56,276 nucleotides of DNA from an uncultured Actinomycetes bacterium (lineage in GTDB: Bacteria > Actinomycetota > Actinomycetes > Nanopelagicales > Nanopelagicaceae), in NCBI GenBank assembly GCA_903843225.1, contig CAIMOX010000016.1:103358-159633 (forward strand), written 5' to 3'. The position numbers and the translations under genes are program-made. Below the pieces are notes generated by a model. That model made no database searches. It was not told where the DNA came from and saw nothing but the letters and a program-made list of their open reading frames with translations. Shown here piece by piece: positions 972-5,938 of this stretch. How positions within the stretch are numbered: position 1 is the stretch's first letter; every line of letters begins with the position of its first letter.

Positions 972-2189
972 CTATTCAGAGGAATCGCCAGCCTCGGAAT
1001 TCTCCATAAGACGGGCGGGGCGAACGCTCCCCTGGCCAAAGCGGCGGGTTGCAGCATCGATCGCTTCTGTAGCCTCTCGCCAACCTTTTTCACGCTCGCC
1101 CAGGAGTAATTGCTGAGGAGAACCCGTGCCCTCACTGAGATTCTCAAGGCTCACCCCCACGAGGCGAATTCGCGCCCGATCTAATTTCAGCGCGAGGTAG
1201 AGAGCGCGGACGACCTCATAACACTCCTGCACACCACTGAGTGGAAGGGCGACTGTCTTTGATCGACTAATGGTCGTGAAATCAGCGAAGCGAATTTTGA
1301 TCGCGATTGTCTTTGTGACAAGGCTTCGATCTCGCAAGCGATGTGACGATCGCTCTACCATGCGAAGTAGCTCCCTCAATATCTCATCATGGTTATCGAG
1401 ATCAACGAGGAAGGTTTCTTCGGCGCCAATACTCTTATCGGGTTCATCCATTGTGATTGTTCGATAATCGCGACCCCATGAGAGTTCGTGCAGCGTTTCA
1501 CCGCTCGCCTGCCCTAGGACTCGGATGAGGGTCTGTCTCGGAGTCTTTGCAATGTCGCCGATAGTTCGTAATCCAATTTTTTGTAACTCAGTTTCGGTCT
1601 TAGGACCGACTCCCCACATCGCACCGACAGGAAGTGGGTGGAGAAATTCTAAAACGCGATCTTTATGAATCTGTAGCACTCCATTTGGTTTTGCGTAAGT
1701 CGAGGCTAACTTGGCGATAAATTTTGATGAGGCAATACCAACCGAGCAGGTGATTCCTTCTTCAGATTCCACTCGTGCTCGAATCTTTGCCGCAATCTCT
1801 GGCCCGCTACCGTGCAAGCGTTTGCTCCCCGTGACATCAAGAAATGCTTCATCAAGTGAGATTGGCTCCACGAGTGGAGTAAATGCCTGGAAGATCGCCA
1901 TGATATGTGTAGAGATCTCAGCGTTACGTTCCATATTCACCGGAACAAAGATCGCATCTGGCGCTAGCCGCCTCGCTTGGCCGAGTGGCATCGCAGATCT
2001 CACGCCAAGATTTCGTGCAATGTAGTTCGCGGAAGAGACAACTCCCCTTGCGCCCATTCCAACAACAACGGCCTTGCCTTTGAGGGTCGGATCATCACGC
2101 TCTGCCACAGATGCATAGAAGGCATCCATATCGACATGGAGAATGGTGAGCTCTCGCTCGTATTGCTCACTCACCACTGACTCGCTCAT
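972..2189 (-). CDS. dinB: DNA polymerase IV (Y-family translesion polymerase)
   Basis: A Y-family polymerase that bypasses damaged template bases. The first catalytic segment HVDMDAFYASV lies near residue 18-28 and the second, SLDEAFLDV, near 112-120. Both carry the acidic residues needed for catalysis, so this is a working DinB rather than the inactive ImuB type. Helix-hairpin-helix and little-finger regions follow. A QQLLLG segment near residue 359 resembles a beta-clamp binding motif. The ATG at 2189 (MSESVVSEQ) is preferred because it overlaps the end of dnaE2 by only 23 bases; an ATG at 2237 would add 16 residues that do not look conserved. No Shine-Dalgarno is obvious, so translation is probably coupled to dnaE2. 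It belongs to the LexA-controlled operon. Confidence 0.9.
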   Translation of the reverse strand: MSESVVSEQYERELTILHVDMDAFYASVAERDDPTLKGKAVVVGMGARGVVSSANYIARNLGVRSAMPLGQARRLAPDAIFVPVNMERNAEISTHIMAIFQAFTPLVEPISLDEAFLDVTGSKRLHGSGPEIAAKIRARVESEEGITCSVGIASSKFIAKLASTYAKPNGVLQIHKDRVLEFLHPLPVGAMWGVGPKTETELQKIGLRTIGDIAKTPRQTLIRVLGQASGETLHELSWGRDYRTITMDEPDKSIGAEETFLVDLDNHDEILRELLRMVERSSHRLRDRSLVTKTIAIKIRFADFTTISRSKTVALPLSGVQECYEVVRALYLALKLDRARIRLVGVSLENLSEGTGSPQQLLLGEREKGWREATEAIDAATRRFGQGSVRPARLMENSEAGDSSE

Positions 2190-5100
2190 AAGAGTTGAGG
2201 CTACGCGATTGGTCGCGCCATTTAGCGTAAGAAGCACTTAACTCCCACGCCCGTGTAGCTCGAATCGAAATTCCGCGGGGACCGGTTCTGCGCACCTCAC
2301 CACGAACCAAGAAGAGCCATGAGCTGTAGAGCAGCGCGGCAGAGCTCTCTTGGGCATCTTCAAAGAATGTGATGTCGTTACAACCATTGCCATCGTCGAG
2401 AGTCAGGAAGATGACGCGTCGACCAGAGCGTATCGGTGGTGTTTGAAGCGCGACCTTTACGCCAGCAATAAGCACAGTACTGCCAGAGCGTTGATGGATC
2501 AGATCAGAAGATTTTATTGCGCCGATATGGTTAAGAAATTCTCCGTAAAATTCCAGCATATGGTGCGAGATATCCATCCCTGTGAGATCAACCTCGTGAT
2601 AAATCTTCTCTGATTGAGTGAGATCGGGTAGCCCAGATGACTCAAGGAGCGGTGGCGCTAAGCCGAGCGTTAATTGATCGCTACTGAGTGCTCCGCGCTT
2701 GCCACTCTTTCCACTTACCGAACCTTTACTTGCCGATAACTTATAGAGATCTTGTGCGTGAAGTAGAAGATCGCGCCTATTAAGAGCGCCATCTATTGGT
2801 TCTGCTTGTAAGTGGTGAAGGCGATCAAAGGCGCCAACCAAGATCAATGACTCCGTTGTGGGGTATGCCGAGCCTGATCTCACGACGAAATCTGCTAAAT
2901 CGATATATGGGCGACCCTGAATAATTGTTGAAATCTCGTTTCCACTTATTCCTTGGATACCGCTCAGCGCCATACGAATTGCATAGCCACGCGCATCTGG
3001 CAGGGTGAGCGGTGAACCAGTACTCGCGATATTTGGTGCACGGTAAGGAGCTCTAAAAGGATGCGAGGGTTTCGCTTCGACCTTCTCAACTCGATAGGTG
3101 CGATCTGAGAGATTGATATCAATAGGTGTGATCTCGATACCCCATTGTCGCGCCTCATCGAGGATAAGGCGCTTGGGGTACATTCCTGGATCATGTGTGA
3201 GCGCTCCTGCAATAAATGCTGCAGTGTGGTGAGCCTTTAACCAAGCAGATTGATATGTCGGTAGTGCAAAGGCAGCGGCATGCGCTTTACAGAAACCAAA
3301 TGATGCGAAAGCTCGAAGCACTTCCCAGACCTTATCAACCACCTTCATCTCAAATCCTTGAGCAAGCGCAGTGGGATAAAACCACTTGCTTACTAACTCT
3401 TGACCATCATCTGACCCGAGTTGGCGGCGACGCTCATCAGATTCAGCTAGAGATGAGCCAGTCATTGCCGAGATCAGGCGAATCACTTGCTCGTGGAATA
3501 CAACGACGCCTTCAGTCTCATTCAAGATCGGGTCAAGGCGAGGATGGAGGAGGATCTTGCTGCGATGGCCATGCCGAGTATTAATAAAGGGCGTGATCAT
3601 GTCACTCTTTACTGGCCCTGGGCGAAAGAGTGAGATATCGATAATGAGATCGGTAAACGTGGCGGGTGCGAACTTTCCTACTAACTCACGCTGCCCCGGA
3701 CTCTCGACTTGGAAGATGCCAAGTGTGCGCGTTGATTTAATAAGATCAAAGGTATCCCTGTCATCAAGTGGGATCGCATCGATATCGATCGTTGATTCTT
3801 CTACCCGCTCGATCTCTGAGATCGCGTAGGAGATCGCAGATTGCATACGTACCCCAAGGACATCGAGCTTCAGAAGTCCAATCGCTTCCACATCATCTTT
3901 ATCAAAGTAGACCATGGGGTAATCACTTGAATTACGCAGGATAGGTGCAACATCTAAGAGCTTGGCATCAGAGAGGACAATCGCACAGGGATGCATCGAC
4001 AAGTGGCGAGGCAATCCATCGATTTGCTGCGCAAGTTCGATCATCATCTTCATAATCTTCGAATCAAGTTTGAGGCTTTTAAGCTCAGGGAGATTGGTGA
4101 GAGCCTTGCTGATGTTACGAGCACGAATATGGGGCATGGATTTTGCGATGAGGTCGATCTCCATCTGGGATATGCCAAGTGCGGCGCCAACATCACGTAT
4201 CGCATGGCGAGCTCGATAGGTATCGACCATTGCAACGGTCGCGGTTCGCTCTGGTCCATAGCGCTTAAAGATTGCTTCATAGATCTCTAATCGACGATGC
4301 GATTCGACATCGATATCAATATCAGGAAGCTCACCACGAAGAGTGGAGCAGAAGCGCTCCATCAAAAGTCCTTGGCTGAGTGGTTCAACCCCGGATATAC
4401 CTAAGAGGTAGCAGATCAATGAGCCTGCACCACTTCCGCGCGCTGCGACTCGAATCCCCCGGTCTCGCGCCATCTCAGCGATATCTGCGACGGTGAGAAA
4501 GTAAGACTCAAAGCCCAAGGTGCGAATAGTTGCAAGCTCTTCTTCAAGACGCAGCGCTGCATCAACAGATTGAGATGATGAGTAACGCCTGGATAGACCA
4601 GCCTCGGCTCGGTCGCGAAGCTGCACACTCATTTGCGCATGGCTATCTGCCCCTACAACGCTGCTCTCTGGAAGGTGGACTCCTCCAATCCCAATATCTC
4701 TGCGAGGTGAGAGTCGGCAGCTTTCAGCAAATAATGCAGTACTCGCCAAGAGTGAGTTTCCATTGCGCTCCCCCGCCATCCGCGAGATCTCATCAGCGAC
4801 ATAGCGCATCTCGCTATCGCTCTTAAGGTACCCCTCGCTGTTACGCCGCTCGACATGGCTCTGATGAAGTGGAACGAGAAGTCTTGAGGCATCTAAGACA
4901 TCGGCGAGTGGGCCATCACTAGGACCAAGCATCCGCGCAGCATTTGTCAGAATAGCTGGAAGGTTGTGATCTCTAGCAAAGCCAAGTGCTCGTGCGGCAT
5001 AGGGGGTAGAGAGTGGGCCATCGCCTCGTATTAAATGAGATGTGCACTCAATAATCTGCTGCGCAAAGAGATCCCGGCCAGCGTTATAGATAGAGAGCGC

Positions 5101-5517
5101 AGCATCGTATTTACGAGCGGCAATACTCTGCGAAAGTTGAGAATCGTAGCCATGCATGAAGAGAAGCTGTGAAGAGTACTCACTCGCCTCTTCAAGAATC
5201 TCATAGGTTAGAAGGTTCTCATTATTTGCACGGTTGATGGCGGTCATCAAGCGATAGAGAGCAGGCAACTTTCCAGATTGAGCAAGGAGCGTCACTCGAT
5301 ACTTCTTCTGAATAAAACTTAGATTGACACCGAGTATTGGAGCTATGCCATGCGCTTCACAACTCTGAGCAAAGCGAATTGCACCAGCTAGTCCGTCACG
5401 ATCGGTGAGAGCGATAGCGTCCATTCCATATTCAGCGGCACGTGATACGAGAGCATCAGGTTGCGCAGTTCCATATTTGAAGGAGTAGCCACTTGAAAGG
5501 CGCAGATGGGTGAACAT
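2167..5517 (-). CDS. dnaE2: Error-prone DNA polymerase III alpha subunit, DnaE2-like
   Basis: A C-family DNA polymerase of 1116 residues. The order is an N-terminal PHP domain, then palm, fingers and a C-terminal OB-fold. The catalytic acidic pair is in PDIDID (398-403) and the third aspartate in KLDVLGV (D552). A QLTLG segment in the C-terminal quarter looks like a clamp-binding motif. The PHP metal site is degenerate: HLRLSS replaces the usual HxHxxS-type start and TDRDG (38-42) replaces TDHDG, so proofreading by this domain is unlikely. DnaE2 lengths of about 1050-1100 fit. The gene sits 6 bases after the DUF6504 gene and overlaps dinB, which supports a damage-induced mutagenesis role rather than replicative DnaE1. 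Confidence 0.85.
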   Translation of the reverse strand: MFTHLRLSSGYSFKYGTAQPDALVSRAAEYGMDAIALTDRDGLAGAIRFAQSCEAHGIAPILGVNLSFIQKKYRVTLLAQSGKLPALYRLMTAINRANNENLLTYEILEEASEYSSQLLFMHGYDSQLSQSIAARKYDAALSIYNAGRDLFAQQIIECTSHLIRGDGPLSTPYAARALGFARDHNLPAILTNAARMLGPSDGPLADVLDASRLLVPLHQSHVERRNSEGYLKSDSEMRYVADEISRMAGERNGNSLLASTALFAESCRLSPRRDIGIGGVHLPESSVVGADSHAQMSVQLRDRAEAGLSRRYSSSQSVDAALRLEEELATIRTLGFESYFLTVADIAEMARDRGIRVAARGSGAGSLICYLLGISGVEPLSQGLLMERFCSTLRGELPDIDIDVESHRRLEIYEAIFKRYGPERTATVAMVDTYRARHAIRDVGAALGISQMEIDLIAKSMPHIRARNISKALTNLPELKSLKLDSKIMKMMIELAQQIDGLPRHLSMHPCAIVLSDAKLLDVAPILRNSSDYPMVYFDKDDVEAIGLLKLDVLGVRMQSAISYAISEIERVEESTIDIDAIPLDDRDTFDLIKSTRTLGIFQVESPGQRELVGKFAPATFTDLIIDISLFRPGPVKSDMITPFINTRHGHRSKILLHPRLDPILNETEGVVVFHEQVIRLISAMTGSSLAESDERRRQLGSDDGQELVSKWFYPTALAQGFEMKVVDKVWEVLRAFASFGFCKAHAAAFALPTYQSAWLKAHHTAAFIAGALTHDPGMYPKRLILDEARQWGIEITPIDINLSDRTYRVEKVEAKPSHPFRAPYRAPNIASTGSPLTLPDARGYAIRMALSGIQGISGNEISTIIQGRPYIDLADFVVRSGSAYPTTESLILVGAFDRLHHLQAEPIDGALNRRDLLLHAQDLYKLSASKGSVSGKSGKRGALSSDQLTLGLAPPLLESSGLPDLTQSEKIYHEVDLTGMDISHHMLEFYGEFLNHIGAIKSSDLIHQRSGSTVLIAGVKVALQTPPIRSGRRVIFLTLDDGNGCNDITFFEDAQESSAALLYSSWLFLVRGEVRRTGPRGISIRATRAWELSASYAKWRDQSRSLNSYERVSGE

Positions 5518-5523
5518 CTTGCG

Positions 5524-5901
5524 TTAAACCGATCCTGTGGTTGGGCGAGATGTTGGACGGATCTGCCAACTGCCAGTGATCTCATCGAGTTCAATCTCAA
5601 AGGTAGCGAGCGCACCGACCGGAGCCGCCTCTACTCGCCAGATTGCCCGAGCGCCATCATCAAAGATTGTCTGTTCTAAATGGGCTGACTGTTGGATGTG
5701 CTGGAGCCTTCTCCCATCATCGATTCGGTTCCACCACCCACCCGATTCGCGCCAGCGAGAGAGAGTCGCATGGATATGAAAACGTCTACCTTGATAGAGG
5801 AACTCAATCGGCTCCCCTTCTGGTGCAAGAACTGGGGCAGGGCGGAGCGCCCCGGCGGCTGGAGCGGCGGGTAGGGCTGGGATATCTGATGATTCGAACA
5901 T
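5524..5901 (-). CDS. DUF6504 family protein, first gene of the SOS polymerase operon
   Basis: A 125-residue protein with a low-complexity Ala/Pro N-terminus (about residues 8-28). It is followed by a beta-rich region with FLYQGRRFHIHATLSRWRES, GGWWNRID and IWRVEA, the pattern of the actinobacterial DUF6504 family, which is often found beside dnaE2 and dinB. No catalytic motif is visible. A role as an accessory factor of translesion synthesis, comparable in position to ImuA of other cassettes, is inference. The ATG is the only canonical start before the conserved region and lies in the centre of a perfect LexA palindrome. The transcript is therefore probably leaderless. Confidence 0.75.
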   Translation of the reverse strand: MFESSDIPALPAAPAAGALRPAPVLAPEGEPIEFLYQGRRFHIHATLSRWRESGGWWNRIDDGRRLQHIQQSAHLEQTIFDDGARAIWRVEAAPVGALATFEIELDEITGSWQIRPTSRPTTGSV

Positions 5902-5910
5902 ATGTTCGAA
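5893..5910. promoter_or_regulatory. LexA operator (SOS box)
   Basis: A perfect 18-bp palindrome, TTCGAACATATGTTCGAA. Its core TCGAAC-N4-GTTCGA is identical to the LexA box known from mycobacteria and other actinobacteria. It overlaps the last base of the -10 hexamer and the predicted transcription start of the minus-strand operon, a position where a bound repressor would block RNA polymerase. The ATG of the first gene is inside the box. Confidence 0.9.
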
Positions 5911-5938
5911 AGATAGCCTCCTCCACTGACAGTGGCAA
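5910..5938 (-). promoter_or_regulatory. Promoter of the SOS operon
   Basis: On the minus strand a -35 TTGCCA (5938-5933) and a -10 TATCTT (5915-5910) are separated by exactly 17 bp. The predicted start of transcription, 6-9 bases after the -10, falls on or next to the ATG at 5901, so little or no leader is expected. The -35 overlaps a small inverted repeat, CCACTG-A-CAGTGG (5923-5935). Confidence 0.7.

Follow-up and report, generated by a model that had tools for sequence, protein, structure and literature searches.

Can the operator of an SOS operon also supply the operon's start codon? The question arises in the window analyzed here, a 56,276-nt stretch of a Ca. Nanopelagicales genome in which an operon of the order DUF6504-dnaE2-dinB lies on the minus strand. 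Its first gene encodes a DUF6504 protein of 125 aa (5524-5901; PF20114, E 1.5e-7). Behind it follow a dnaE2-like error-prone polymerase gene of 1116 aa (2167-5517, minus strand), identified as an ORF with a domain match and with a DnaE2 N-terminus in 120 of 123 related loci, and a dinB-like (Pol IV) Y-family polymerase gene (972-2237, minus strand), the only IMS-domain gene in the genome. The presence of dnaE2 and dinB after DUF6504 supports the SOS assignment made in the first-pass annotation. No ImuB, the catalytically dead protein that stands beside DnaE2, was found in the genome; the single Y-family gene retains DMD and DEA motifs, as an active DinB typically does, which would set the operon apart from an ImuA'-ImuB-DnaE2 mutasome. 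Rfam searches of the operon, recA and lexA regions returned no RNA family matches.

A start codon within the predicted LexA operator

The predicted LexA operator is a perfect 18-bp palindromic SOS box at 5893-5910 (TTCGAACATATGTTCGAA), with the LexA core CGAACNNNNGTTCG at 5895-5908; the minus strand across promoter and operator reads CTTGCCACTGTCAGTGGAGGAGGCTATCTTTCGAACATATGTTCGAATCA. The 14-bp core occurs at four sites in the 1.35 Mb genome (backwards-read control, 0): at the DUF6504 operon, in the upstream regions of lexA and recA, and in or near uppS, where the copy is probably due to chance. The genome encodes LexA and RecA, both behind a core of their own, and the perfect box with an actinobacterial core that had been described for this site is confirmed. 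With an operator at its promoter and boxes at lexA and recA, the operon would be classed among the actinobacterial LexA-regulated (SOS) operons. The DUF6504 ATG (5901-5899, minus strand) is indeed the central ATG of the palindrome, and no in-frame start lies between it and the preceding stop codon.

DUF6504 was found in 26 of the 32 genomes of the genus. The first-pass annotation had staked its reading on the box persisting in relatives that keep the operon, and the box is present in 27/27 genus loci, all of which read TATCTTTCGAACATATGTTCGA with the ATG in frame as the DUF6504 start. A family-wide search with the Pfam model recovered DUF6504 in 177 of 201 genomes, and this survey together with extra loci gave 134 box-bearing loci, all of which keep GAACNNNNGTTC. 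In 76 of the 134, DUF6504 starts in frame at the box ATG, and that ATG is the sole in-frame start ahead of the domain in 16/27 genus loci and 40/76 in-box loci. The 76 loci span nine genera (27, 15, 12, 11, 4, 3, 2, 1 and 1 loci), and the box-centre start codon is conserved across eight or more genera. A collection search of named Ca. Nanopelagicaceae and Nanopelagicales metagenome genomes found the in-box start in 65 of 68 loci, a count that may lean towards in-box loci because the search patterns included the MFESSDIP start; the Pfam-based survey, unlike that search, is free of the MFESSDIP bias. The associated Fisher values are descriptive rather than a strict test, since related sequences are not independent.

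The bases that follow the box centre are nearly invariant. Codon 2 is TTC in 76/76 in-box loci and codon 3 is GAA or GAT; across the family, TTC follows the box centre in 134/134 loci, with GAA or GAT directly after it in 131. TTCGAA is retained even where it is non-coding, in the genera with a downstream translation start (the large genus g18 and the small genera g24, g29 and g31). In g18 the box is kept, the sense centre usually reads ATCTG, ACCTG or ACTTG (46/52), and 46 of 51 loci have an SD-like sequence ahead of the downstream start. Because TTC and GAA persist in the family's box loci whether they are coding or not, the bases of codons 2-3 appear to be held by DNA binding, in support of the earlier proposal that LexA binding fixes residues 2-3 (Phe-Glu). 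The accompanying claim, that operator and first codons cannot evolve independently, does not extend to the start codon: four genera retain the operator and begin translation downstream. As judged from these loci, codons 2-3 are set by DNA binding and the ATG is kept mainly where it is the start, so the start codon can escape.

A CTG start within the g18 box, which has similar downstream bases, was considered and rejected: the frame often misfits, an SD-preceded ATG lies downstream in most loci, and leaderless translation in mycobacteria reportedly needs ATG or GTG (PMC4633059). In g31 (L071, G165) about 250 bp separate the LexA box from the DUF6504 domain downstream of it; a PafBC-like element shares the orientation, but the distance from −10 to box is longer. 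In one species (L173, G063) the stretch from the −10 to the LexA box holds a second box-like repeat, TTTTCGAATATCTAGTCGAACACCTGTTC, which is partly decayed.

Promoter elements and the predicted transcription start

The promoter had been read as TTGCCA-N17-TATCTT. Both hexamers are present on the minus strand (TTGCCA, −35-like, 5938-5933; TATCTT, −10, 5915-5910, its last base shared with the palindrome), 8 bp separate TATCTT from the ATG, and the TTG is conserved in the family. That reading overlooked a better-supported arrangement of the PafBC type, TGTCRG-N10-TAnnnT, whose −26 element TGTCAG lies at 5926-5931 (minus strand). The window site, TGTCAG-TGGAGGAGGC-TATCTT, matches exactly the PafBC motif published for M. 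tuberculosis in a 2021 study (TGTCGG, TGTCAG or TGTCAC-N10-TA-NNN-T; PMC8151990). Single-stranded DNA activates PafBC, which makes contact with a −26 element and with domain 4 of sigma-A (PMC11804915). The PafB and PafC genes are adjacent in the genome, their sole PDB sequence matches being PafB/PafC structures, and PafB is present in 116 of 121 family genomes. Having both the TGTC(GG/AG/AC)-N10-TA-NNN-T motif and the pafB and pafC genes, the site is a candidate PafBC-dependent promoter.

The register of these elements is conserved. Within the genus, the upstream sequence diverges apart from the TTG at −35 and the TGTC at −26. TGTC-N12-TAnnnT is found in 125 of the 134 family loci, and in 126 the distance from the start of the −10 to GAAC is exactly 8 bp; a few small box-keeping genera have no clear in-register TGTC or place the −10 elsewhere. 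The strict form of the motif, TGTCRGTG-N8-TAnnnT, occurs three times in the genome (controls, zero): at the DUF6504 operon; next to the lexA box, on the other strand and facing a LysM gene; and ahead of a small zinc-ribbon gene. Two of the three adjoin LexA boxes.

The neighborhoods of these and related sites show further features. In the lexA/LysM intergenic region (L046:1458-1530; G000:C38, about 132.3 kb) the divergent genes have two LexA boxes in common and the PafBC-type promoter faces the LysM gene; in the comparable M. tuberculosis lexA/Rv2719c pair, a PafBC-type motif beside lexA faces the divergent gene (PMC8151990). The zinc-ribbon motif (L045:1428-1530; G000:C46:3890-3911) lies upstream of one small zinc-ribbon gene and one membrane-protein gene without a LexA box, and the sister genus g18 has similar motifs with a LexA box attached. 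In the region from the LexA box to recA (L069:1385-1567; genus loci L249-L277), upstream of that gene, a short genus-conserved stretch (CCCAACCAGAGCGGTTCCACA...) can be read as an ORF of 30-40 aa across the PafBC motif, its first codon being ATG or ATA depending on the species.

To place the transcription start, we compared the −10 spacing of the operon with that of its genome. A scan of 418 kb, covering 331 candidate starts of 173 operon-first genes, revealed that TAnnnT peaks at −12 (n = 47) and −13 (n = 19), against under 1% for internal ATG/GTG controls. This concentration indicates that leaderless genes are common in the organism, as they are in mycobacteria (PMC4633059). At DUF6504 the spacing from the start of the −10 to the ATG is 14 nt, 1-2 nt beyond the peak and shared by only 5 of the 331 starts (p about 0.02 versus control), which counts against the regulatory reading proposed below. 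Relative to the −12/−13 peak, this spacing predicts a leader of 0-2 nt and a transcription start within 5901-5903 (minus strand), from A5903 (2-nt leader) to A5901 (no leader). No SD-like sequence precedes any of the in-box starts (0/76). Being too distant, at 15 nt before the ATG, and not conserved, GGAGGAGG was not accepted as a Shine-Dalgarno sequence. Of the proposal that transcription begins exactly at the ATG, a leaderless or nearly leaderless message remains probable given the missing SD sequences and the genome's many leaderless genes, though the 14-nt spacing falls outside the 12-13 nt peak, and the exact position softens to a leader of 0-2 nt.

Recurrence of the layout across Actinomycetia

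A search for TGTCRG-N10-TAnnnT followed within 16 bp by GAACNNNNGTTC found matches in 118 of 247 Actinomycetia genomes, with one match in total for the backwards control. The arrangement recurs across the class and is not special to one operon. Register counts were taken from 91 listed sites outside the family, some near-duplicates being omitted. Gaps of 0-1 pair with an ATG at box position 7 (24 sites) and gaps of 2-3 with position 5 (18 sites), and 46 of the 61 in-box ATG/GTG codons sit 12 or 13 nt from the −10. As the register of the ATG shifts with the gap, the in-box codon would be kept at the leaderless distance. Those composite sites that were checked belong to genes for DUF222/HNH proteins and RuvC; RecA dependence is reported for five HNH endonuclease genes of M. 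tuberculosis (PMC8151990). Many of the composite sites are probably related DUF222 copies, and the site count is not a count of independent origins.

We lean towards the view that, repeatedly in Actinomycetia, a LexA box has come to provide the start codon for a leaderless SOS gene preceded by a PafBC promoter, registers 7 and 5 keeping the codon 12-13 nt from the −10. If so, repressor site, activator-dependent promoter, and transcription and translation starts would form one module of about 40 bp that answers both damage pathways.

Regulatory logic and comparison with known systems

LexA and PafBC binding, the precise nucleotide at which transcription starts and the logic of the gate are inferred here from the observed elements, their fixed register and conservation, the reading frame, the leaderless habit of the genome, and the genes lexA, recA, pafB and pafC. 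The reading that we consider likely is that PafBC activates and LexA blocks one promoter, that a nearly leaderless message begins inside the operator, and that the expected result is an AND gate. The sigma-A polymerase would open the TGTCAG (−26)/TATCTT (−10) promoter once single-stranded DNA activates PafBC. The LexA box, running from the downstream edge of the −10, would cover the transcription start, so that bound LexA blocks the PafBC promoter until RecA on single-stranded DNA provokes LexA self-cleavage and the block is lifted. The message would then start 0-2 nt ahead of the in-operator ATG and be translated without a Shine-Dalgarno sequence. LexA cleavage and PafBC activation both respond to single-stranded DNA, and the operon would accordingly be expected to fire only with LexA cleaved and PafBC active.

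Three alternatives bear on parts of this reading. That the in-box ATG arose by chance from the favored centre of the palindrome, with translation beginning elsewhere, is very improbable. Box centres can read ATG without being starts: the frame from the lexA box ATG is interrupted by stops in several relatives, on which ground a start of lexA in its own box was rejected, and four genera begin DUF6504 downstream of the box. Against coincidence, the frame from the box ATG is open in 27/27 genus loci, 16 of which offer no other start ahead of the domain, most loci of the large genus with a downstream start have lost the ATG, and the class-wide register of in-box ATGs tracks the −10 spacing. We likewise regard as improbable, if less extremely so, control by LexA alone of an ordinary sigma-A promoter (TTGCCA-N17-TATCTT) in which the TGTC has no role. 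The family-wide TTG at −35 with 17-bp spacing fits such a promoter, but the rest of TTGCCA drifts (TTGCCC, TTGTGC, TTGCTA) while the −26 TGTC stays at one distance from the −10 in 125/134 loci; PafB and PafC are present, the PafBC motif is rare in the genome and sits by LexA boxes, and the class-wide PafBC/LexA composites lie far above their control.

The third alternative concerns the gate, and although unlikely it deserves more weight than the other two: in a graded logic LexA would be the sole effective switch and PafBC a booster, basal sigma-A transcription being enough after LexA loss. The conserved TTG at −35 favors this alternative and counts against an AND gate, since sigma-A might fire without PafBC, and dnaE2 expression in M. 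smegmatis biofilms hung mainly on recA rather than pafBC (PMC12702967). In M. tuberculosis, combining a recA deletion with a pafBC knockdown left a dnaE2 response in place (PMC8151990), so an AND gate cannot be taken for granted. Against a graded logic, many relatives have no full −35 hexamer, and conservation is stricter at the −26 TGTC than at the −35.

If dual control by PafBC and LexA is correct, the two actinobacterial DNA-damage pathways are joined at the single promoter of mutagenic polymerases, and PafBC-type control extends to a freshwater lineage with very small genomes. Mycobacterial mutagenesis reportedly depends on both PafBC and SOS, via the mutasome, according to a 2021 study. 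The need for both damage signals becomes directly testable at the DUF6504 operon promoter. Here the regulatory site and the protein's first codons use identical bases, and the genera with a moved start codon provide a natural experiment that separates the constraint on DNA from that on protein.

Several components of this arrangement are already known: LexA boxes, PafBC promoters, mycobacterial genes carrying both motifs (PMC8223512), leaderless lexA (PMC2897130) and mycobacterial leaderless translation (PMC4633059). Our literature search, whose coverage is incomplete and does not prove absence, returned no account of a start codon provided by a LexA box, nor any statement of the register rule. 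The M. tuberculosis lexA message is leaderless, its experimentally placed translation start coinciding with the transcription start (PMC2897130); in the available text of that report the start codon is not described as part of a LexA box, whereas in the window it is the box centre. The Streptomyces venezuelae dnaE2-dinP operon resembles the window operon in having a LexA-controlled dnaE2 followed by a Pol IV gene, but its box is at −68 from the predicted start and the PafBC motif was not found to be conserved in that species (PMC9380542). With the mycobacterial LexA regulon (SOS box TCGAACNNNNGTTCGA) the window operon has in common the box core, the targets lexA, recA and dnaE2, and the placing of mutasome polymerases under LexA; it differs in that the box holds the first gene's start codon and abuts the −10, and in the order DUF6504-dnaE2-dinB in a genome without ImuB. 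The mycobacterial PafBC, or RecA-NDp, promoters (TGTCRG-N10-TA-NNN-T) are matched exactly in motif, with PafB and PafC in both. At recA in the window's own genus, 73-109 bp lie between the LexA box and the PafBC motif, a distance at which separate promoters are possible. At the DUF6504 operon, in contrast to the mycobacterial PafBC promoters, the predicted PafBC promoter and LexA operator form one fused unit in fixed register.
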